NCBI GenBank assembly: GCA_947631015.1
Contig: CANRJS010000020.1
Span: 1-39,501 of the forward strand
Origin: an uncultured Clostridia bacterium
GTDB taxonomy: Bacteria > Bacillota > Clostridia > Oscillospirales > JAAYOS01
DNA length: 39,501 bases
Direction: 5' to 3'
Each line of letters begins with the position of its first letter. The stretch's first letter is position 1. Below the pieces are notes generated by a model that was not told the DNA's origin, made no database searches, and was given only the letters and a program-made list of their open reading frames with translations. Below are positions 59 to 31,315 of this stretch, piece by piece. Position numbers and translations under genes: made by a program.

Positions 59-940
59 TTATGCCGTTCGCCGCCTGCCCGACGACGGTCGGTACTCCGT
101 GTCCGGGATGAGGTCGAGCTGTTCCAGCATCGCCCTGTGTTCCGCACCCGTCGTCATGATATAGATGCGCGTCGTGTTCACGCTACTGTGGCCGAGCACG
201 TCCGCGAGCTTGGCAATATCATGACTTCTTTCGTAGAACATCCGGGCGAACAGCTTCCGCAGGTTGTGCGGGAACACCTTTGCCTCCGGGACGCCTGACT
301 TCCGCGCGAGCCGCTTCATCATCGCCCAGACCGTTCCGCGACCGACGGGCTTTCCGCTTCGGTCGAGGAAGATCGCGCCGGAAGTGATACCCTGCTCGCC
401 CGCGAACTGCAAAAGCAGGGTTTTCAGCTTGTGCGTGAGAAGAATTGAGCGGGTCTTTCCCTTGCAGGTGACGGACAATGCACCGCGCCGCACGCCCTCG
501 ACGGTGAAATACTTCAACTCAGAGATTCGTATTCCGGTCGAACAGATCGCCTCGAGGATGAGACGCTCGCGGGACGACGCCGCGCCGAGCAGGCGGAGGT
601 ATTCGTCGCGGGTGAGCTCGCGTTCCTCGGGGCGGAACGCTTCGCGCTGGACGCGCGTCCGCTCGGCGCGGCAGTCCTCCCGTCCGACAAAGCGGAACAG
701 AGCATTGAGCGACGCCAACATCGTGTTGACGCTCGAGGGAGAGTAGCCCGCGCCGAGAAGCGCGTCGCGATACTCAAGCGTCAGCTCCGGGGAGACAGGA
801 CGCCCCGCGAGGAACCGCGCGAACTCGCGCGCGTCGTGCAGGTACTTCTCGCGCGTGCAGACGCTGCGGTGCTTCGCTTCGAGCTCGCGCGCGAACGCGG
901 AGATCAGCTCCGGTGTAAGAATCAAATTTGTCATTTTCAT
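59..940 (-). CDS. Tyrosine-type site-specific recombinase (XerC/XerD-like)
   Basis: Predicted 293-residue DNA strand-exchange enzyme. An N-terminal SAM-like/core-binding domain covers about residues 8-90 and the catalytic domain about 105-280. The family's catalytic residues are visible: Arg138 in TGIRISEL, a Lys at 160 or 162 in CKGKTR, His225 and Arg228 in HNLRK, His251 in LGHSS, and the nucleophile Tyr260. The usual HxLRH is HNLRK here, a mild variation. I chose the ATG at 940 because AAGGAAG lies 5 nt upstream; an in-frame ATG at 982 would overlap the promoter. The gene has its own promoter and lies beyond the dnaA terminator, so it is probably a separate unit. Size and lack of an arm-binding domain fit Xer or phase-variation recombinases better than phage integrases. 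The substrate is unknown. Confidence 0.88.
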   Translation of the reverse strand: MKMTNLILTPELISAFARELEAKHRSVCTREKYLHDAREFARFLAGRPVSPELTLEYRDALLGAGYSPSSVNTMLASLNALFRFVGREDCRAERTRVQREAFRPEERELTRDEYLRLLGAASSRERLILEAICSTGIRISELKYFTVEGVRRGALSVTCKGKTRSILLTHKLKTLLLQFAGEQGITSGAIFLDRSGKPVGRGTVWAMMKRLARKSGVPEAKVFPHNLRKLFARMFYERSHDIAKLADVLGHSSVNTTRIYIMTTGAEHRAMLEQLDLIPDTEYRPSSGRRRTA

Positions 941-980
941 AGAGACTTCCTTAGGAGTAAGATTGATAATGTTATGATAC

Positions 981-1007
981 ATTATATCTTTTGCCCCTGA
1001 GTCTCAA
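981..1007 (-). promoter_or_regulatory. Promoter of the tyrosine recombinase
   Basis: On the minus strand, TTGAGA (1002-1007) and TATAAT (981-986) are separated by 15 bp. The -10 is perfect and the spacer is short, so activity may be modest. The start codon is about 40 nt downstream. Confidence 0.5.
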
Positions 1008-11185: not shown

Positions 11186-11503
11186 CAATATTCGCGAAGC
11201 GAATATTGCTAGCGAGGGCTGTAAAGTGTCGGATGAGGAAAAGGTGCGCGCCCTCGCGGTTCGCAGCGGTTAAATTCGGCGCGGAGCGCCGAATTTGCGC
11301 AGGACGATTCCCTACCGTGTTCGGCTTTGCCCGCAAAGCGGGCAAAACTCACGAGGGCCGAATATGTTGTTTTGCGGAATATGTCGGCGCCCTCGTGTTC
11401 CGCACGAGCATTTCAATCAAAGGAGTCCCCAAACGGCGTGAAACGCCGCTTGGGGAAAGTATTTCGATTGGGAGGGTTCCCAAACGGTCTGCTGACCGTT
11501 TGG
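11186..11503. repeat. Modular palindromic repeat block
   Basis: No gene is supported in the 457-bp gap 11078-11534. After the terminator it holds: dyad CAATATTCGC-gaa-complement (11186-11208); a stretch through 11271 that recurs inverted at 14461-14546; a CACGAGGGC/GCCCTCGTG dyad (about 11350-11399); and two constant leaders (from 11406 and about 11463), each followed by a hairpin with a different stem (11427-11455 and 11480-11503). The last hairpin may serve as the rnhA terminator. Confidence 0.75.
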
Positions 11504-19369: not shown

Positions 19370-19447
19370 AACTTTTTTCGGCCTCTAATCCAACATTTCA
19401 CCAAAGTTGCAAAAAATCACTTCTATTACACTTATGTTACAAATCGG

Positions 19448-19474
19448 CTTCCCCCCTTGCAATAAGGGGGGAAG
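19448..19474. promoter_or_regulatory. Perfect inverted repeat overlapping the S-layer promoter
   Basis: Arms CTTCCCCCCTT (19448-19458) and AAGGGGGGAAG (19464-19474) around GCAAT. It covers the -35 hexamer and part of the spacer. No T-run follows, so an operator is more likely than a holB terminator, though either is possible. Confidence 0.5.
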
Positions 19475-19485
19475 TGGTGTATTAT
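19457..19485 (+). promoter_or_regulatory. Promoter of the first S-layer gene
   Basis: TTGCAA (19457-19462) and TATTAT (19480-19485) with a 17-bp spacer. The -10 ends 9 bp before the block shared with the second S-layer gene begins (19495), so the promoter is outside any segment exchanged between the copies. The leader is about 50 nt. Confidence 0.7.
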
Positions 19486-19494
19486 CCGAATTGT

Positions 19495-19771
19495 GGCAGG
19501 AGTGTCATGCCAAAAACACCAAACAGGAGGAAAAGAACAAATGAAGAACCTGAAGAAAGTTCTGTCCCTGGCTCTTGCGTTTGCGATGGTGCTGGGTCTG
19601 TGCATCGGGGCAATGGCCGCCGATACCAAGACTCAGAACGTCACAACGCTCAAGGACTGGGCAGACGTAACCAACAAGGACGCGGCACAGCTTCTGAACG
19701 CGTTCAACATCATGCAGGGCGACGGCAACGGCAATTTCCGTCCGGCCGACCCGGTCACCCGTGCAGAGGCC
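19495..19771 (+). repeat. Outer inverted repeat, left copy (S-layer 5' block)
   Basis: Matches 25217-25493 on the opposite strand over 277 bp with one difference (19724, G against A). It covers the leader from GGCAGGAGTGTCATGCC, the ribosome site, signal peptide and most of the first SLH repeat. Perfect identity runs 229 bp (19495-19723). Confidence 0.97.
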
Positions 19772-22243
19772 GCGAAGATGATTGCTGTCGCTCTTTGGGG
19801 CGGCGCGGATCTTTCGGCCAACTTTACCGAAGTGGGCGATGTCTTTGCCGATGTTAAGAGCACCGACTGGTTTGCCGGCTATGTAAACTACGCCGCGACC
19901 ATCGGCATCGTCGCCGGCCGCAACGCCACTACCTTCGACCCGCAGGGCAACGTCACCGGCTACGAGCTTCTCAAGATGACCCTTACCGCTCTCGGCTATG
20001 ACCAGGATGATGAGGGTCTTGTCGGCGCCAACTGGAAGATCAGGACCATGGCTCTTGCTATGGGCAGCAACGGTCTTGCCGACCTCACCAAGGACGTCAA
20101 GGTCACTAGCTGGGACGCTCCGCTCAACCGCGACAACACCGCGAAGGTTGTTGCGAACATGATCAATCGCACTATCGTCAAGTACGACCGTGACGGCTAC
20201 ATTGATGAGACCAGCACGAAGACCTTTGGCGTTCAGTACCTCAAGCTTGAGGAAGTTCCCGGTATTCTTGTTGCTAACTCCTACGCTGCTATGCCTAAGA
20301 ATCAGTACAAGAACTCTGAGACTGAGACCGTTACCGGCAACTTCGAGGTCAGCGATCCGGATCATTACAACTCCGTCCTTCTGCCGATAGTGGATGGCAA
20401 GTACGGCACGCCGATAGATGTCAACACCACCAGCGGCCTGTATGACCTCGGCTCTTACGCTACCGCTTACAAGAACAACAAGACCCCGATTTCTGTTGCT
20501 ATCACCCCCGCTACCGTTGTTACCAATCCTTACGCCGGCACGGACTCGTCCACGGCTCTTACTATTGGTTCCAACACCAGCACGGCTTACACCGCTGTTA
20601 CCAAGCTCGACACTGACGGCAACGGAAAGACCAACGTTACCATAACCGTGAACTATGCTGCCGCTATCTCGGATGTCAAGGCTGTCATAGAGAGCGAGAC
20701 TTGGGGCACCGTGTACCAGACCGGCAACGTTGCTTGGCGTGACGCTTATGAGGACGCCACCACGCTTCCGCAGAGCATCAAGGCTATTAAGTTTGTTACC
20801 GGCGCTGCTGCCGCTAAGGACGACAAGGTTCTTACGGTTGAGAGCACTAATGCAAGCAAGAAGACCGTCACTCTGGGCGCTGCTCTTGAGACCGTCGAGG
20901 GCACCAACACCCGTATCAACGACACCGACTACTACATTGACGGTGTCAAGTATACCAACAAGGTTGCGTCCAGCTCGAATGTTACTCTCGGATTCGGCGC
21001 TACCGGTGTCTTCTACACTTATCCGGGCTCGACCAATATAGTCACTGCTAAGATAAGCGGCGGCGCAGAGACCAGCGTTGCACTTCTCTATGATGCCGGA
21101 TACACCGCAGAGAGCGGCACGAGCGCTATGGGCGGCGGCACGAACGCTGCTGTTATGACTGTTGCGGCTATCCTGCCGGACGGCACCAAGGGCACCTACA
21201 CCGTTACCCAGTATGGTACCGGTGAGCAGGCCATAAAGCTCAACAAAAAGGACAAGATTAATGAAGTCATTGGCGTGAACGGCGACCTCAAGAACCTTAG
21301 GGAGCATGACGACAACGGCGCGCTGGCCAACACCAATGAGGCCAACTATCTTGTTGAGTACTATCTTGACAAAGATGGCAACATGATAATCACTGCGGCC
21401 TGCAAACTCGACGGGACCGGCATTGTCAACCAGGAGGTTAAGACCACTACCACGAGCGTTTCGGTTGGTAATACCAGCAAGTTTATCACTTCTGAGACCG
21501 TCACCTTCGTCCAGACTTCGACGAACACCGCGTATACCGCCGAAGATTGGACCGTCTACGTTGGCAGAACCGTCAGCTACACCGTAAAGGCGGGCGGCAA
21601 GGTTGATATCGTTCTCGGCGCCTACAATGGCATTGCCGATGCGGCCATTAAGTATGCCACCGTCGAGGCGAAGGACCTTGTAGCCGCTACCGGCGTGACC
21701 GAGGACTTCTACTATGTTATCGCTGACCACGGCCAGATTAGCGCTGACTATGATGAGTTTGTCGTATTTGATGCCAGCGCGGGCAAGGTCATCACCATCA
21801 ACGTTGCTCACTCCAGCGCGAGCGGCATAGATGAGGGCGAGTTCTATACCAAGTATGACGGCAGCACGCTTACCGTAGAAAAGTTCTTTAACACCGATAA
21901 CGATATCAAGGGTTATGTCACCAACTTCGCCAACGACATAGTAGTTGTCTCTGGCTTTGGTAAAGAGAACAGCGGCGAGTATCCGTTCGATATCAAGGGC
22001 GCTTATGTTGTCAACGACAAGACCAAGTTCTTTGTTATCGGCGATGAGGAGACCAGCGCGAAGATAACTGCTGCTGACGTGGCAGTTCAGGGTCCGACCA
22101 CCGAGCCGGCCAAGAGCGCTGATGGTACCAAGCTCTCGACTCCGTATCAGGCGATCGTAGTTGTTGACGGCGGCGTTGCTACTACTGTTATCCTCTTCGC
22201 GGAGGAGCAGGCGCTTGAGACCACAATCTCCACCGGCCGCTAA
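19541..22243 (+). CDS. SLH-domain S-layer protein, copy A (promoter-proximal)
   Basis: 900-residue secreted surface protein. Signal peptide 1-26 (MKNLKKVLSLALAFAMV, cleavage AMA|AD). Three SLH repeats: about 36-84 (FRPADPVTRAEAAKM), 101-153 (FDPQGNVTGYELLKM) and a weaker one near 165-208. SLH repeats bind pyruvylated wall polysaccharide. The remainder is Thr/Ala/Val-rich, beta-type, with no catalytic motif, and fits a structural lattice protein. AGGAGG lies 10 nt before the ATG; the leader has a good promoter. Codons differ from neighbours: AUC/AUU are common while other genes here favour AUA, as expected for a very highly expressed gene. Paralogous with the convergent gene at 22760-25447 along its whole length. 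Confidence 0.93.
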   Translation: MKNLKKVLSLALAFAMVLGLCIGAMAADTKTQNVTTLKDWADVTNKDAAQLLNAFNIMQGDGNGNFRPADPVTRAEAAKMIAVALWGGADLSANFTEVGDVFADVKSTDWFAGYVNYAATIGIVAGRNATTFDPQGNVTGYELLKMTLTALGYDQDDEGLVGANWKIRTMALAMGSNGLADLTKDVKVTSWDAPLNRDNTAKVVANMINRTIVKYDRDGYIDETSTKTFGVQYLKLEEVPGILVANSYAAMPKNQYKNSETETVTGNFEVSDPDHYNSVLLPIVDGKYGTPIDVNTTSGLYDLGSYATAYKNNKTPISVAITPATVVTNPYAGTDSSTALTIGSNTSTAYTAVTKLDTDGNGKTNVTITVNYAAAISDVKAVIESETWGTVYQTGNVAWRDAYEDATTLPQSIKAIKFVTGAAAAKDDKVLTVESTNASKKTVTLGAALETVEGTNTRINDTDYYIDGVKYTNKVASSSNVTLGFGATGVFYTYPGSTNIVTAKISGGAETSVALLYDAGYTAESGTSAMGGGTNAAVMTVAAILPDGTKGTYTVTQYGTGEQAIKLNKKDKINEVIGVNGDLKNLREHDDNGALANTNEANYLVEYYLDKDGNMIITAACKLDGTGIVNQEVKTTTTSVSVGNTSKFITSETVTFVQTSTNTAYTAEDWTVYVGRTVSYTVKAGGKVDIVLGAYNGIADAAIKYATVEAKDLVAATGVTEDFYYVIADHGQISADYDEFVVFDASAGKVITINVAHSSASGIDEGEFYTKYDGSTLTVEKFFNTDNDIKGYVTNFANDIVVVSGFGKENSGEYPFDIKGAYVVNDKTKFFVIGDEETSAKITAADVAVQGPTTEPAKSADGTKLSTPYQAIVVVDGGVATTVILFAEEQALETTISTGR

Positions 22244-22254
22244 GTCCCCACAGC

Positions 22255-22299
22255 AACACACACGTTAAAACGCTTTGGCATGGCGTGAAAACCTGCAAA
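22255..22299 (+). repeat. Inner inverted repeat, left copy
   Basis: 45 bp identical to 22703-22747 on the other strand, starting AACACACACGTTAAAACG. It lies just after the stop codon of copy A and extends the homology of the two genes past their ends. Confidence 0.93.
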
Positions 22300-22300
22300 G

Positions 22301-22335
22301 AAGCCGCCTCGGGCATACTGCCCGAGGCGGCTTTT
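22301..22335 (+). terminator. Terminator of S-layer copy A
   Basis: Perfect 15-bp arms AAGCCGCCTCGGGCA and complement around TAC, ending in TTTT. Confidence 0.85.
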
Positions 22336-22363
22336 CGCGCTGTTCGCGGGAAATCGCGCGATT

Positions 22364-22442
22364 CCCGCGCGGTCGCCGACCGCGCGGGATCCTGATGCGC
22401 CCGGCAGAATGTCGCGCTGTGCGGCAAGCCGGCGGGCGCATT
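22364..22442. repeat. Palindromic repeat modules between the S-layer genes
   Basis: Hairpin CCCGCGCGGTC-gcc-GACCGCGCGGG (22364-22388), a base-pair-compensated version of those at 14.4 and 30.3 kb, followed by the module GATGCGCCCGG...CGGGCGCATT (22394-22442). The gap 22244-22759 holds no gene. Confidence 0.7.
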
Positions 22443-22598
22443 CTCCGCGCTGTGCTGTGCCGGGACGCGCGGGCGGGGTGCGCGCCGCAACGGCGGCGCG
22501 CACGGCGGCGCGGCGGTGACGAGGCCGGGCGCGGAGCCGAAAGCTCGCGGGTGCGGCGCAGGTTCGCGCGGTGCCGAGAGCCGCATCCGCCGCACCGC

Positions 22599-22638
22599 CG
22601 CCTAGGGCGCGCTCGCGGCCGCGAGCGCGCCCTAGGCG
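22599..22638. repeat. 40-bp perfect palindrome
   Basis: Two 20-nt halves meet at GCGG|CCGC with no loop; each half contains CCTAGG and GCGCGC. It lies about 120 bp from the symmetry axis of the S-layer locus. A cruciform or transcription-blocking structure is possible. Confidence 0.9.
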
Positions 22639-22667
22639 CACCCCGCTTCCCCCGCCGCAAACGAAAC

Positions 22668-22695
22668 CGCCCCCGAGCCGAAAGGCTCGGGGGCG
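22668..22695 (-). terminator. Probable terminator of S-layer copy B
   Basis: Perfect 12-bp arms (CGCCCCCGAGCC and complement) around a GAAA loop. The tail on the minus strand is only moderately T-rich (GGTTTCGTTT). Confidence 0.6.
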
Positions 22696-22702
22696 ATCCT
22701 CA

Positions 22703-22747
22703 TTTGCAGGTTTTCACGCCATGCCAAAGCGTTTTAACGTGTGTGTT
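22703..22747 (-). repeat. Inner inverted repeat, right copy
   Basis: Exact 45-bp inverted counterpart of 22255-22299, just past the stop of copy B. Confidence 0.93.
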
Positions 22748-22759
22748 ACTGTGTGGGAC

Positions 22760-25447
22760 TTACTCGGCTGCCGGAACCTGCTCCTCCGCGAAGAGGATAA
22801 CGGTGGTAACAACACCCTTATCAACCTCGACAATCGCCTGATACGGAATAGTAGTTTCGCTCTTGGGCTCGCTAGTCGGACCCTGAATAGCAACGTCAGC
22901 CGCAGTTATCTTCTCGCTAGTCTCTTCGTCGCCGATGACGAAGTACTTGGTCTCGTCGTTGACAACGTAAGCCTTGTTCTCAAGGGCATACTCGTCACCA
23001 GTCGATGTCTTTGCAAAAGACGAAATAACAATGATGTTATTGGCGAAGCTGGAGACATAGCCCTTGGGAGCGCCAGCAAAGGTTATCTCATCCGAGAAGT
23101 TGTTGTTGGCGAATGTGGTATAGAACTTGCCCTCTGCCGGCTTGTTCGACGCACCGGTCGCCACATTTACGGTCTTGACCTCGTTGGCGCTCGCGTCAAA
23201 GACGACATACTCGTCATAGAGGGGCGAAACCTGGCCGTGTGCGGCAATGATGTAGTAGAAGTCATTGCTCTTACCAGAGTCAGGAACAAGGGAATTGGAC
23301 TTGACAACCGCGTACTTAACAGCAGTATCCTTTATGCCGTTGTAGTCGCCGAGAACGACTGTAGCTGTGTTATTCTGGGCGATGCTGTAATTGACAGTCC
23401 TTCCGACGTAGGCAGTCCAATCCTCAGAGGTGTTAGTGCCGTTAACAGAAGTCTGAATGAAGGTGACAGTCTCCGGGGTGATCAGCTTGCTCGCACCACC
23501 AACCAAAACGCTCGTGGTGCTGGTCGTGATATTGGTCGCAGCGGTAGTGCTGCCGATCGTTCCGCCAGTCGTGCAAAGCTCGGTGATTATCATATTACCG
23601 TTTTCGTCAAGATAATAGTTGACGAGGTAGTTGTTGTCTCCTCCAGTAGCGCCAGTTATGCCAACGGTTACCCAAGAGTTAGTGTTCAGCCCGTTCAGTG
23701 AATTGCCCGAGCCAAAGACATTGATAATACCGTCATTGCTATTGAGGTCGGTGGTTCCGAACTTGGTAGCAGTGTAAGTACCCTTGGTGCCGTCCGACAG
23801 GATAGCCGCAACGGTGACAACCGGCTTGGTGGCAGTGCCGCCGATAGCAGTGCTTCCGCCGCCCGGGGTCAAACCTGCGTCATAGAGAAGCGCAACGCTA
23901 GTCTGTGCACCGCCGCTTATCGTAGCAGTGACAATTTCGGTCGTGCCCGGATAGGTGTAGAAGACTCCGCTGACGCCGAACCCGGAAAGGTCAACGTTCG
24001 ACCCGGTTTTGTCGGTATACTCAGTGCCGTCAATGTAGTACTTGGGAGCGTTAATGCGGGTGTTTGTGCCCTCAACGGTCTCCAGAGCAGCGCCGATGAC
24101 AACCTTGGTCGCAGGAGTAGTAGACGAAATCAGCGTGCTCTCAACCGTAACGACCTTATCGTCCTTCGCGGCAGTAGCGCCAGTGACAAACTTGATTGCC
24201 TTGAAGCTGTTCGGAAGCGTAGCCGCATCCTCGTAAGCGTCACGCCATGCAACGGAGCCAGTCTGGTAAACGGTGCCCCAAGTCTCGCTCTCCACAACGG
24301 CCTTGACGTCAGACAGCGTCGAGTAATGGACGGTTATGGTGAGGTCGGTCTTACCGTTCGCATTGGTATCGAGCTTGACGGCGGAGGTGTACTTGGCGCC
24401 GCTTTCTGTACCAATGGTAAGTGCCTTAGCGCCCGTGTCCGTACCCGCATAGGGGTTAGTCACAACGGCAGCGGGGGTTATGGCAACGGAAATGACGGTA
24501 TCGCCCTTCTTGTAGGCGACAGCCTTGGAGCCGAGGTCATACAGACCGCTGGTGGTGTTGACGTCGATCGCATTGCCATACTTGTTGTCCACTATCGGCA
24601 GAAGGACGGAGTTGAAATGCGCCGGATCGCTGACCTCGTAGTTGCCCGTAGGAGCAGCCGTACCGGTAGCGGCATTATAGTACTGATCCTTAGGCATGGT
24701 AGCATAGGCGTTAGCCACAAGGATGCCCTCGACCTTTTCGAGCTTGAGGTACATCTCGCCAAAGGTCGGAATGGGAGCAGTAGCGGTGCTTTCAATGACG
24801 TAGCCGTCACGGTCATACTTGACGGTGGTGGCGGTTATCATGTTAGCGATGACCTGCGCGGTGTCCTCACGGTTGATCGGGAGATTCCAGTTGGCGATAT
24901 CAACGCCCTCGGTCAGGTCGTTGCCCGTGGCGAGGATCATCGTCTTGGTCTGCCAACCGGCACCGACGAGGCCCTCGTCCTCCTGCCTGTAGCCGAGAGC
25001 AGTGAGGGTCATCTTGAGCAGCTCGTAACCGGTGACGTTGCCCTGCGGGTCGAAGGTGGTGGCGTTGCGGCCCGCAACGAGCTCGGAAGTCGCAGCGTAC
25101 TTCACGTAGCCGGCAAACCAGTCGGTGCTATTAATGTCGGTGAAGGTAGTGGTGCCGTCCTTGAAGAGATCCTTGAGATCATCGCCGCCCCAAAGAGCGA
25201 CAGAGATCATCTTGGTGGCCTCTGCACGGGTGACCGGGTCGGCCGGACGGAAATTGCCGTTGCTGTCGCCCTGCATGATGTTGAACGCGTTCAGAAGCTG
25301 TGCCGCGTCCTTGTTGGTTACGTCTGCCCAGTCCTTGAGCGTTGTGACGTTCTGAGTCTTGGTATCGGCGGCCATTGCCCCGATGCACAGACCCAGCACC
25401 ATCGCAAACGCAAGAGCCAGGGACAGAACTTTCTTCAGGTTCTTCAT
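22760..25447 (-). CDS. SLH-domain S-layer protein, copy B (probably silent here)
   Basis: 895-residue paralogue of the S-layer protein at 19541-22243, on the opposite strand and tail to tail with it. Signal peptide and first SLH repeat are almost identical to copy A; from about residue 78 the sequences drift apart, with many substitutions and several indels in the middle, while segments such as GLYDLGS, SDVKAV(V/I)ESETWGTVYQTG, ALETVEGTNTRIN and the C-terminal AEEQ remain shared. The same ribosome site precedes the ATG. The 208 bp upstream show no sigma-A promoter, only the 3' end of the integrase gene, so this copy is probably unexpressed or weakly transcribed by read-through. The reading frame is intact, which argues that it is used at times. 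Confidence 0.93.
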   Translation of the reverse strand: MKNLKKVLSLALAFAMVLGLCIGAMAADTKTQNVTTLKDWADVTNKDAAQLLNAFNIMQGDSNGNFRPADPVTRAEATKMISVALWGGDDLKDLFKDGTTTFTDINSTDWFAGYVKYAATSELVAGRNATTFDPQGNVTGYELLKMTLTALGYRQEDEGLVGAGWQTKTMILATGNDLTEGVDIANWNLPINREDTAQVIANMITATTVKYDRDGYVIESTATAPIPTFGEMYLKLEKVEGILVANAYATMPKDQYYNAATGTAAPTGNYEVSDPAHFNSVLLPIVDNKYGNAIDVNTTSGLYDLGSKAVAYKKGDTVISVAITPAAVVTNPYAGTDTGAKALTIGTESGAKYTSAVKLDTNANGKTDLTITVHYSTLSDVKAVVESETWGTVYQTGSVAWRDAYEDAATLPNSFKAIKFVTGATAAKDDKVVTVESTLISSTTPATKVVIGAALETVEGTNTRINAPKYYIDGTEYTDKTGSNVDLSGFGVSGVFYTYPGTTEIVTATISGGAQTSVALLYDAGLTPGGGSTAIGGTATKPVVTVAAILSDGTKGTYTATKFGTTDLNSNDGIINVFGSGNSLNGLNTNSWVTVGITGATGGDNNYLVNYYLDENGNMIITELCTTGGTIGSTTAATNITTSTTSVLVGGASKLITPETVTFIQTSVNGTNTSEDWTAYVGRTVNYSIAQNNTATVVLGDYNGIKDTAVKYAVVKSNSLVPDSGKSNDFYYIIAAHGQVSPLYDEYVVFDASANEVKTVNVATGASNKPAEGKFYTTFANNNFSDEITFAGAPKGYVSSFANNIIVISSFAKTSTGDEYALENKAYVVNDETKYFVIGDEETSEKITAADVAIQGPTSEPKSETTIPYQAIVEVDKGVVTTVILFAEEQVPAAE

Positions 25448-25493
25448 TTGTTCTTTTCCTCCTGTTTGGTGTTTTTGGCATGACACTCCTGCC
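25217..25493 (-). repeat. Outer inverted repeat, right copy (S-layer 5' block)
   Basis: Inverted counterpart of 19495-19771, with one mismatch in 277 bp. Upstream of 25493 the two loci share nothing: the promoter of copy A is replaced by GC-rich sequence next to the integrase gene. Confidence 0.97.
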
Positions 25494-25655
25494 GTGTCCT
25501 GCAAAAAATCATTCAGGAGGGACTTTCCGCCCGTTTCGCGCGCTGCCCGTCGCGCCCGGGGGACGAAACTACAGCCGCCCGCCGTGCGTCCTCGCCCCGG
25601 AGCCGCTGAAACGCCGCCGCCGCGCGGGTTTCGCGCCCTGCCGCATACAGCGACG

Positions 25656-26840
25656 TTACAGCGACGCCGCCTGTGACGACCCGTACAGCAGCTCCGCGAG
25701 CCGGTCGACACACGCGCGCTTCTGACCCGGCAGCGAGTGCGTGTAGATGTTGAGCGTCATCTGCGTGTCCGAGTGGCCGAGCAGCTCGCTCAGGCTCTTG
25801 ATGTCCAGCCCGCTTTCGACCCAGCGTGTCGCGAACGTGTGGCGGAGGCCGTGCAGAGTGACCGGCGGCAGACCCGCCTCGTCCTCGACCGAGCGGAGCA
25901 GGCGGCGGATGTCTGTCCCGTCCGACAGCGCGCCGGTGCTTGTGAGGAAGAGAAAACCGCGCTCGAGCCACGTTCCGTCCCACCGCGGCGACGCGCGCCA
26001 CCGTGCTGCCGACCGCCGTATCATCTCGGCGCGGCGGAGCATCGCCGCGCGCAGCAGCTCCGCCGTGAACGTGTCTATCGGGATGGTGCGGCGGCTCTGC
26101 CGCGTCTTCGGATCGCCCTCGCATATCGGCGCGCGCCCTGTCCCCGGCATGCGGACGCGCCCGACCGTCCGCCGCACGTGCAGCTCCTTCCGTTCGAGGT
26201 CGACGTCCTCGAGCCGCAGCCCCAGCGCCTCCCCTATCCGCAGACCGGTACGGAGCAGCAGCACCGGCACGGCGGCGAGCCATTGGCGCGGGAACCGGCT
26301 CATCGCCGCGAGCTCGAACCGCCGCTGTTCCTCCGGCGAGAAGACCAGCCGCTCGGGCTTGTCCGCCGGAGGCAGGACGAGCCGCACCGCCGGGTTCTTC
26401 TCGATGTAGCCGAGATCCGCCGCCTTTTGCAGCGAGGTCTGGAGGCGCGTCCGCAGATGCGAGACGGTCGAGCGTGCGAACCGGCCGAGCTCCCGCGCGA
26501 GGAAGCGCTGAAGCGCCTCCTCCCGGAGGAGATACAGCGGCGTCTCGCCGAGCGCCGGGACGATGTGGCCGTACAGCTCCGCGTGATACGCGGCGTAGGT
26601 TCGCGGACGCACCGTCGGCCGGACGTACACCTCGAGCCACTCCGAAAGCCACTCGCCGAGCGTCCGCGTGTCCGCCGGAGGCGGAGACGCCGCTGCGCTC
26701 CGCAGCAGCGCCGCCGCCTCCGTCCGGGTGTGTGAGTAGAGGTATCGCCGCCGGCCGTCCGGCGCGGTGAACTGCGCCGTCCACAGCCCGTCCCGGCGGC
26801 GATAGATGGAGCCCTCACCGTTTGCGCGTCTTTTTGTCAT
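25656..26840 (-). CDS. Integrase-type tyrosine recombinase beside the S-layer locus
   Basis: 394 residues, phage/ICE-like integrase architecture. N-terminal arm-binding domain (about 1-50, NGEGSIYRRRDGLWTAQF), SAM-like core-binding domain (about 60-150) and catalytic domain (165-385). All catalytic residues are present: Arg201 in RTGLRIGEAL, Lys245 in DPKTRQSRR, His330 and Arg333 in HGLRHTFATR, His356 in LLGHSDTQ and Tyr366 in NIYTHS. The ATG at 26840 has AGGAGGG 8 nt upstream. No excisionase, relaxase or phage gene is adjacent, so it is either a relic of a lost element or a resident enzyme. It reads toward S-layer copy B, 208 bp away, with no terminator seen between. A link to inversion of the S-layer genes is possible but unproven. 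Confidence 0.92.
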   Translation of the reverse strand: MTKRRANGEGSIYRRRDGLWTAQFTAPDGRRRYLYSHTRTEAAALLRSAAASPPPADTRTLGEWLSEWLEVYVRPTVRPRTYAAYHAELYGHIVPALGETPLYLLREEALQRFLARELGRFARSTVSHLRTRLQTSLQKAADLGYIEKNPAVRLVLPPADKPERLVFSPEEQRRFELAAMSRFPRQWLAAVPVLLLRTGLRIGEALGLRLEDVDLERKELHVRRTVGRVRMPGTGRAPICEGDPKTRQSRRTIPIDTFTAELLRAAMLRRAEMIRRSAARWRASPRWDGTWLERGFLFLTSTGALSDGTDIRRLLRSVEDEAGLPPVTLHGLRHTFATRWVESGLDIKSLSELLGHSDTQMTLNIYTHSLPGQKRACVDRLAELLYGSSQAASL

Positions 26841-26860: not shown

Positions 26861-27128
26861 TATAGCTGCCGGGGGGGCGGACCCATGGTGCTCCACGCGG
26901 GCGCTTTTCTGTTTGTCGTCGCCGGTTTGCGCCGGCAATACCGGCTCCTCCGCGCAGAAAATCATCCGAAAACCGCTCCGCGTGGAGTGCAGGCAGTTTC
27001 CGGCGGCGGAATTGCGTCCGGCGGGAAAAAGCCCGCCGGGAATACTGCCGTATTTCCAAGGGCTCCGGCGCCGCACGGGCCGGATTCGCCGTCGAAAACC
27101 ACTATGGGTTCGCCTCCCGGCAGCTATA
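26861..27128. mobile_element. Terminal-inverted-repeat element, copy 1 (MITE-like)
   Basis: 268 bp bounded by TATAGCTGCCGGG (26861-26873) and its complement (27116-27128); weaker pairing continues inward through ACCCAT and ATGGGT. No coding capacity is credible. Nearly the same sequence lies at 31042-31315. It occupies most of the gap 26841-27254. A target-site duplication is not obvious, so mobility is inferred. Confidence 0.65.
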
Positions 27129-31041: not shown

Positions 31042-31315
31042 ATAGCTGACGGGTGCGAACCCATGGTGCTCCACGCGGGCTTTTTTCGGCGCTTTTCTGT
31101 TTGTCGTCGCCGGTTTGCGTCAGCAAAACCGGCTCCTCCGCGCAGAAAATTATCCGAAAATAGCTCCGCGTAGAATGCAGGCAGTTTTCGACGGCGGATT
31201 TGCGCCCGTGCGGCGTCAAATCCCTTGGAAATACGGCAGTATTCCCGGCGGGCTTTCCCCCGCCGAACACAAATCCGCCGTCGAAAACCACTATGGGCTC
31301 GCACCCGTCAGCTAT
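31042..31315. mobile_element. Terminal-inverted-repeat element, copy 2 (MITE-like)
   Basis: 274 bp bounded by ATAGCTGACGGGTGCGA and its exact complement, then CCCAT-GTG with two mismatches. Internal blocks (CATGGTGCTCCACGCGGGC, CTTTTCTGTTTGTCGTCGCC, CGGCTCCTCCGCGCAGAAAA) recur in copy 1. A second nested pair, TTTTCGACGGCGGATTT and its complement, folds inside. It fills most of the tilS-hpt gap and starts 10 bp after the tilS stop. Confidence 0.7.

Follow-up and report, generated by a model that had tools for sequence, protein, structure and literature searches.

A tyrosine recombinase beside two opposed SLH genes: a candidate enzyme for a proposed two-gene S-layer switch in uncultured clostridia

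Organization of the SLH locus and its integrase

The window analysed here (39,501 nucleotides) corresponds to the complete contig C20 of a genome (called G000) that totals 1.89 Mb and comprises 43 contigs. It contains two opposed SLH genes, with holB and the gene for a cyclic-di-AMP receptor to one side and ftsH and tilS to the other. Protein A (900 aa, 19541 to 22243, plus strand, Pfam PF00395) lies on the promoter side and protein B (895 aa, 22760 to 25447, minus strand, assigned by Pfam) on the integrase side; the two are 64% identical. SLH domains are present, and both proteins are presumed to form an S-layer. At this locus a search with a floor of 30 nt shows repeats that flank two whole genes: the outer repeat of 318 nt (98% identity) at the 5' ends has arm A at 19495 to 19812 (plus strand) and arm B at 25176 to 25493 (minus strand). 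An inner repeat lies downstream of gene A (22254 to 22299, plus strand) and of gene B (22703 to 22747, minus strand). Slot A, the presumed expression slot, is preceded by a single promoter-like site, TTGCAA-17-TATTAT (19457 to 19485, plus strand), which is kept in the related MAGs G001 and G004. Directly upstream of slot B no promoter was found, a weak plus-strand match at 25480 to 25509 points away from copy B, and slot B is probably silent. The -35 element of promoter A is enclosed by a 13-pair inverted repeat (19447 to 19475, kept in G001 and G004), a possible operator.

The integrase gene (25656 to 26840, minus strand) encodes 394 amino acids, is full-length with an ATG start and has no internal stops. 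Pfam assigns a core-binding and a catalytic domain (PF00589, 3.7e-25; PF14659, 9.8e-10). The catalytic role of the R-K-H-R-H/W-Y residues of tyrosine recombinases is established, and R201, K245, H330, R333, H356 and Y366 are unchanged when the protein is aligned with four relatives, two close and two distant. The intact reading frame and these residues place the protein in the tyrosine recombinase family and make it, by its sequence, a candidate enzyme. The first-pass annotation had described a complete integrase with all six catalytic residues which stands beside the outer repeat, reads toward copy B and has no phage, ICE or excisionase companions. The description is borne out, the last point for the neighbours checked (not every ORF of the window was annotated). 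The gene itself is confirmed with a corrected boundary: the start at 25494 given for it includes the 162 bp that separate the integrase stop codon from the outer repeat.

Closest by sequence among solved structures are the 'Int protein' entries 6emy and 6en0 (7e-17), which we take to be Tn1549 Int, and the core-binding fragment 2kkp. Transposon-type and phage integrases are among the relatives, and the second-best match within its own genome has 31% identity. Two close relatives are present in GTDB r220, the copies of G001 and G004; a pattern scan of IMG/VR returned none. Of the domain order known from Tn916-type ICE and phage integrases (N-terminal arm-binding, core-binding, catalytic), Pfam recovers the latter two. 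An N-terminal strand-strand-strand-helix appears only in a weak structure prediction based on three sequences (mean pLDDT 44.5, residues 11-50 at 67-76), which was too poor for a fold search.

The window holds a second, Xer-like tyrosine recombinase gene (59 to 982, minus strand) at the contig end, 24 kb from the integrase. Together with its flank (1 to 1064) it is 78-90% identical to the ends of contigs L008, L004 and L006, so that at least four copies of this element occur at contig ends of the genome. Two further repeats were seen. One measures roughly 240 nt, with around 90% identity within its pieces, and occurs upstream of the integrase (26873 to 27113) and just downstream of tilS (31051 to 31302). 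The other, a hairpin-bearing repeat starting with CGAGCATTT, is found at 11405, 14829 and 30306 of the window and at L037:6061 (minus strand), with one copy within the central stretch of the SLH pair of G004.

Slot junctions and a candidate core site

In G000, G001 and G004 the two slots turn identical at one and the same base, the first G of the 17-mer GGCAGGAGTGTCATGCC, which lies at 19495 to 19511 in slot A (plus strand) and at 25477 to 25493 in slot B (minus strand). Of the 30 nt ahead of this junction, 6-7 agree between A and B in the three genomes; past it the identity is unbroken over 229 nt in G000, 482 nt in G001 and 126 nt in G004 and decays afterwards. In slot B the junction base is the left edge of the 7-bp spacer GGCAGGA of a 37-bp inverted repeat, TTTTTTGCAGGACAC-GGCAGGA-GTGTCATGCCAAAAA (25472 to 25508, minus strand), whose arms match at 13 of 15 positions. 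Core sites of tyrosine recombinases follow a plan of two inverted half-sites about a 6-8-bp spacer. The slot B repeat has this shape and is proposed as a candidate core site; it is invariant across the three genomes, and the sequence around it varies. An equally good repeat with a spacer of 6-8 bp occurred in 32 of 20,000 first-order Markov sequences modelled on a 220-nt stretch.

In slot A the 17-mer comprises the spacer and the right half-site, and the left half-site is not recognisable. The left flank, which contains the -10 element of the promoter, matches the half-site at 4-5 of 15 positions (counted from the sequences), so that a full site is present at one of the two junctions only; this is the main weakness of an inversion by the enzyme. 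An SLH gene of G003 is preceded by the 17-mer too, and this genome yielded no close integrase, so that the 17-mer may serve as an operator or 5'-UTR element; the G003 contig breaks off 757 nt into that SLH gene, and a second copy may have been missed. In the stretch from the 17-mer to the ribosome-binding site G000 differs from G001 and G004, yet the slots of one genome agree, which indicates that sequence exchange between slots reaches the junction. It had been suggested to map the breakpoints, a fixed core site favouring the enzyme and scattered points RecA. By genome comparison the boundary is fixed rather than scattered, but the three genomes have a single origin of the locus and the boundary thus counts as one event. 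At the junctions of opposed pairs in other genomes (G061, G089, G323, G043, G052 and one G160 copy) no core-like repeat as good was found, the best being 55-80% matched with arms of 10-12 nt. A 12-mer, TGCAAAAAATCA, is present in plus orientation both upstream of slot A (19409 to 19420) and in the flank of the slot B core (25500 to 25511), which may be chance.

The half-site pair recurs in both inner repeats, spaced 6 bp closer than in the core: TTTGCAGG-n10-ATGCCAAA lies on the minus strand at 22274 to 22299 downstream of gene A and on the plus strand at 22703 to 22728 downstream of gene B. Among ten genomes of the family the pattern TTTGCAGG-n-ATGCCAAA was found in the three that carry the enzyme (G000, G001 and G004), with three copies each, all within the locus. 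The other seven, which include G002 with an assembly gap exactly at the locus and G008 at 47% completeness, had none, and the reversed control pattern was absent from all ten. The inner repeat itself is kept almost letter-perfect and is confined to the enzyme-bearing genomes.

The locus in related genomes

The gene order in G001 and G004 is the same as in G000: ftsH, a small ORF, the integrase, an SLH gene, the opposed SLH gene, holB, the cyclic-di-AMP receptor gene, a decarboxylase gene and a transporter gene. In tblastn comparisons with these two genomes the integrase is 96% identical, HolB 95% and FtsH 99%; the SLH proteins are 47-54% identical between genomes (41-51% by tblastn). The synonymous divergence of the integrase (dS 0.11-0.18) resembles that of four neighbours (0.07-0.29), its dN/dS is 0.05-0.15, and the SLH genes differ between genomes with a dS of 0.85-1.04. 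These values indicate an old gene under purifying selection beside a pair that has been replaced or diversified far faster than the flanks. Position and flanks of the integrase are constant in the three genomes, unlike the patchy position and companion genes of a mobile element. The absence of the integrase from G002 is uninformative, since its contigs are interrupted on either side of the locus, within ftsH and within the decarboxylase gene.

Markers at the gene ends change slots between genomes, as would be expected after inversion. The type of terminator and the linker before the inner repeat that accompany slot A in G001 are found at slot B in G004, and vice versa. The linker is located on the side of the inner repeat that faces the gene, so its change of slot could not result from a flip of the inner stretch alone. 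For the SLH proteins of G000 and G004 the crosswise pairing of A with B fits better (-47 in 822 alignment columns; bootstrap range -80 to -16). This signal comes mainly from the first third, and the terminators show the crosswise arrangement too. No significant protein swap was detected between G000 and G001 (-14, -41 to 13) or between G001 and G004 (3, -27 to 32). When G000 is compared with G001, a flip is seen for the central stretch and not for the terminators. The slot swaps depend on few markers that partly disagree. From these mixed signals inversion and mosaic exchange are likely both at work. The lengths of unbroken A/B identity past the junction clearly point to homologous recombination acting on the locus, and the identical coding ends mean that it is needed besides an enzyme.

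Recombinases at opposed SLH pairs elsewhere in the order

The association of recombinases with opposed SLH pairs was evaluated across the order outside the genus, with one region per genome. The count took 40 of the 41 genomes found in both underlying listings (G005 was left out), and the regions were uniform in size with five exceptions. Of these 40 best-SLH regions, 5 have an opposed SLH pair carrying 5' repeats; 4 of the 5 contain a recombinase, against 2 of the other 35 (p = 0.0008). Control regions around tilS contained a recombinase in 0 of 38 cases (no tilS position was available for G069 and G134), a lenient control because tilS lies in a housekeeping region. A further set of loci, most of them picked for adjacent or opposed-looking matches, was kept out of the count except for G061 and G011. 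Three of the genomes, G042, G043 and G052, were rows of search profile A2 and had been picked after their integrases were seen; with these removed, a recombinase accompanies 2 of 3 pairs against 1 of 34 regions without a pair (p = 0.013). The script had scored G052 as having no pair despite an opposed SLH copy, and rescoring it as a pair gives 5 of 6 against 1 of 34 (p = 5e-5). In the first adjacency test (29 best SLH loci, 1.5-kb flanks) a recombinase was found at four loci, two of them of the own genus, and at 0 of 30 tilS places.

Tyrosine recombinases beside or between opposed SLH genes with homologous 5' ends are found in G042, G052, G043, G061, G089, G323 and G160, and in G258 one lies 4.6 kb from opposed SLH genes. 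Opposed pairs with no recombinase nearby exist in G089 (contig C11), G335, G366 and G300; G089 has another pair with one. When 13 SLH-linked integrases were placed on a tree with 42 others, 8 label changes were counted, at least 5 of them forced by the starred branches; several long branches meet in this tree, and single placements are unsure. A single integrase family dedicated to SLH pairs was rejected on this basis. Repeated recruitment of unrelated recombinases to opposed SLH pairs is what a functional link would predict, and the association may be increased by a common location in variable regions.

Two of the other loci have layouts of their own. G042 (L040, L039) has at least seven clustered SLH genes with an integrase among them, and several of the copies lack a normal start and ribosome-binding site and resemble silent cassettes. 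In G052 (L041) there are three SLH 5' ends, one with promoter and ribosome-binding site and two without a ribosome-binding site that have about 60 nt upstream in common; the contig ends fall inside SLH genes.

A proposed two-gene switch and its alternatives

From the architecture of the locus, its conservation, the site and the between-genome marker swaps, all directly observed, we propose a two-gene S-layer switch that is inverted by the resident integrase and in which homologous recombination also exchanges sequence, and assign to it a probability of roughly 0.6. The invertible segment would be the 6.0 kb from 19495 to 25493 with both opposed SLH genes, their 5' UTRs and their 3' flanks; A/B identity starts at both of its end bases in the three genomes, and it includes the gene-end and terminator markers that swap slots. 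The fixed promoter on the holB side and the recombinase on the other side would both lie outside the switch. Strands would be exchanged in the 7-bp spacer, at slot A between the promoter and the ribosome-binding site, and inversion would place the alternative gene, together with its UTR and signal sequence, under the fixed promoter. The common 5' ends would also recombine homologously, which would keep them identical. The integrase probably flips the SLH pair so that the cell can swap its coat.

Catalysis of the inversion by the integrase was one of three options raised at first, and it is the best supported of them: the core-like site lies at the junction, the half-site pair occurs, among the ten genomes compared, only together with the enzyme, the gene is under purifying selection and recombinases stand at other pairs, with the missing left half-site at slot A counting against it. 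We favour it over RecA-dependent homologous recombination across the 5' repeats as the sole agent of inversion, with the integrase a bystander or serving another site, which we regard as unlikely. The long identical 5' ends and the mosaic gene ends do show homologous exchange, and opposed pairs without a nearby recombinase exist. The earlier suggestion of homologous recombination therefore holds in so far as it acts on the locus, and it may share in the inversion or perform it; as the whole explanation, however, it does not account for an inverted repeat of core type exactly at the junction, for the co-presence of the site family and the enzyme, for a bystander beside the pair being under purifying selection or for the recombinases at pairs elsewhere.

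It is improbable that the integrase acts instead at the two inner repeats, flipping only the terminator region between the genes, or regulates the SLH genes by binding at these sites. Such a role would fit the near-perfect conservation of the inner repeat in enzyme-bearing genomes alone, its more closely spaced version of the core half-site pair and the flipped central stretch between G000 and G001, but this flip would leave the pairing of promoter and gene unchanged, the terminators did not flip along with the central stretch and the half-sites are probably too close for the usual spacer. The third option, a remnant of an element integrated beside the S-layer genes, was suggested by the kinship with transposon-type and phage integrases. 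It is ruled out as far as synteny, neighbour-like dS and low dN/dS can do so, and with no element genes among the neighbours checked and IMG/VR yielding no close relative to the patterns scanned, we consider it largely refuted and give it hardly any weight.

If the proposed switch is real, uncultured gut clostridia would swap their outermost coat by means of integrases that are kept for this purpose and were recruited several times, and phages or host immunity would probably drive the swapping. Integrase genes near surface-protein genes need not signal mobile elements. A more tentative extension, which we hold to be doubtful, is that the opposed S-layer pairs of the order form a recurring class of switches with unrelated phage- or transposon-type integrases repeatedly recruited as dedicated invertases, and that in this genus the inner TTTGCAGG-n10-ATGCCAAA sites are used as accessory sites, like a tamed attachment-site complex with direction control.

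Comparison with known switching systems

Switching of S-layers by inversion is already known. In Campylobacter fetus the sap locus switches by inversion of a promoter segment, with homologous recombination involved, whereas here the genes themselves would move; we know of no dedicated integrase beside sap. The slp genes of Lactobacillus acidophilus are opposed on an invertible segment with a common 5' end, and their inversion was reportedly described by Boot et al. in 1996.

In Clostridioides difficile the clostridial cell-wall protein CwpV is switched by the tyrosine recombinase RecV at inverted repeats upstream of the gene; a leader of 195 bp inverts and recV is not near cwpV (PMC2784873), whereas at the present locus whole genes would be inverted and the enzyme is encoded on site. 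The L. acidophilus slpA/slpB pair consists of a dominant and a silent S-layer gene whose expression is switched by chromosomal inversion, and the paper on it names no enzyme, the word recombinase occurring 0 times (PMC7858073). The locus described here likewise has two opposed S-layer-type genes with a common 5' end in an inversion layout and differs in its SLH-type proteins and in the tyrosine recombinase at the locus. In Mycoplasma agalactiae the vpma locus encodes its own tyrosine recombinase (Xer1); the recombination sites lie in the 5' UTR, the 5' UTR and signal sequence are conserved, and inversion joins a silent gene to the one promoter (PMC2268961). The likeness extends to the locus-borne tyrosine recombinase, the single promoter at the presumed expression slot and the homologous 5' ends (PMC2268961). 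The vpma genes, however, are a multigene lipoprotein family of another phylum, whereas here two opposed SLH genes are accompanied by a phage/transposon-type integrase, and of the 5'-UTR site the full core-like form is present at slot B and only spacer and right half at slot A. In the limited literature collection searched, no description of an S-layer or SLH pair switch with a recombinase of this kind was found. For the present locus a candidate enzyme, its proposed site and an exact 7-bp crossover are all named, which makes the mechanism directly testable in a laboratory host. On the simplest reading, by analogy with these systems, the switch would work like vpma/Xer1 with the gene layout of L. 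acidophilus slpA/slpB.
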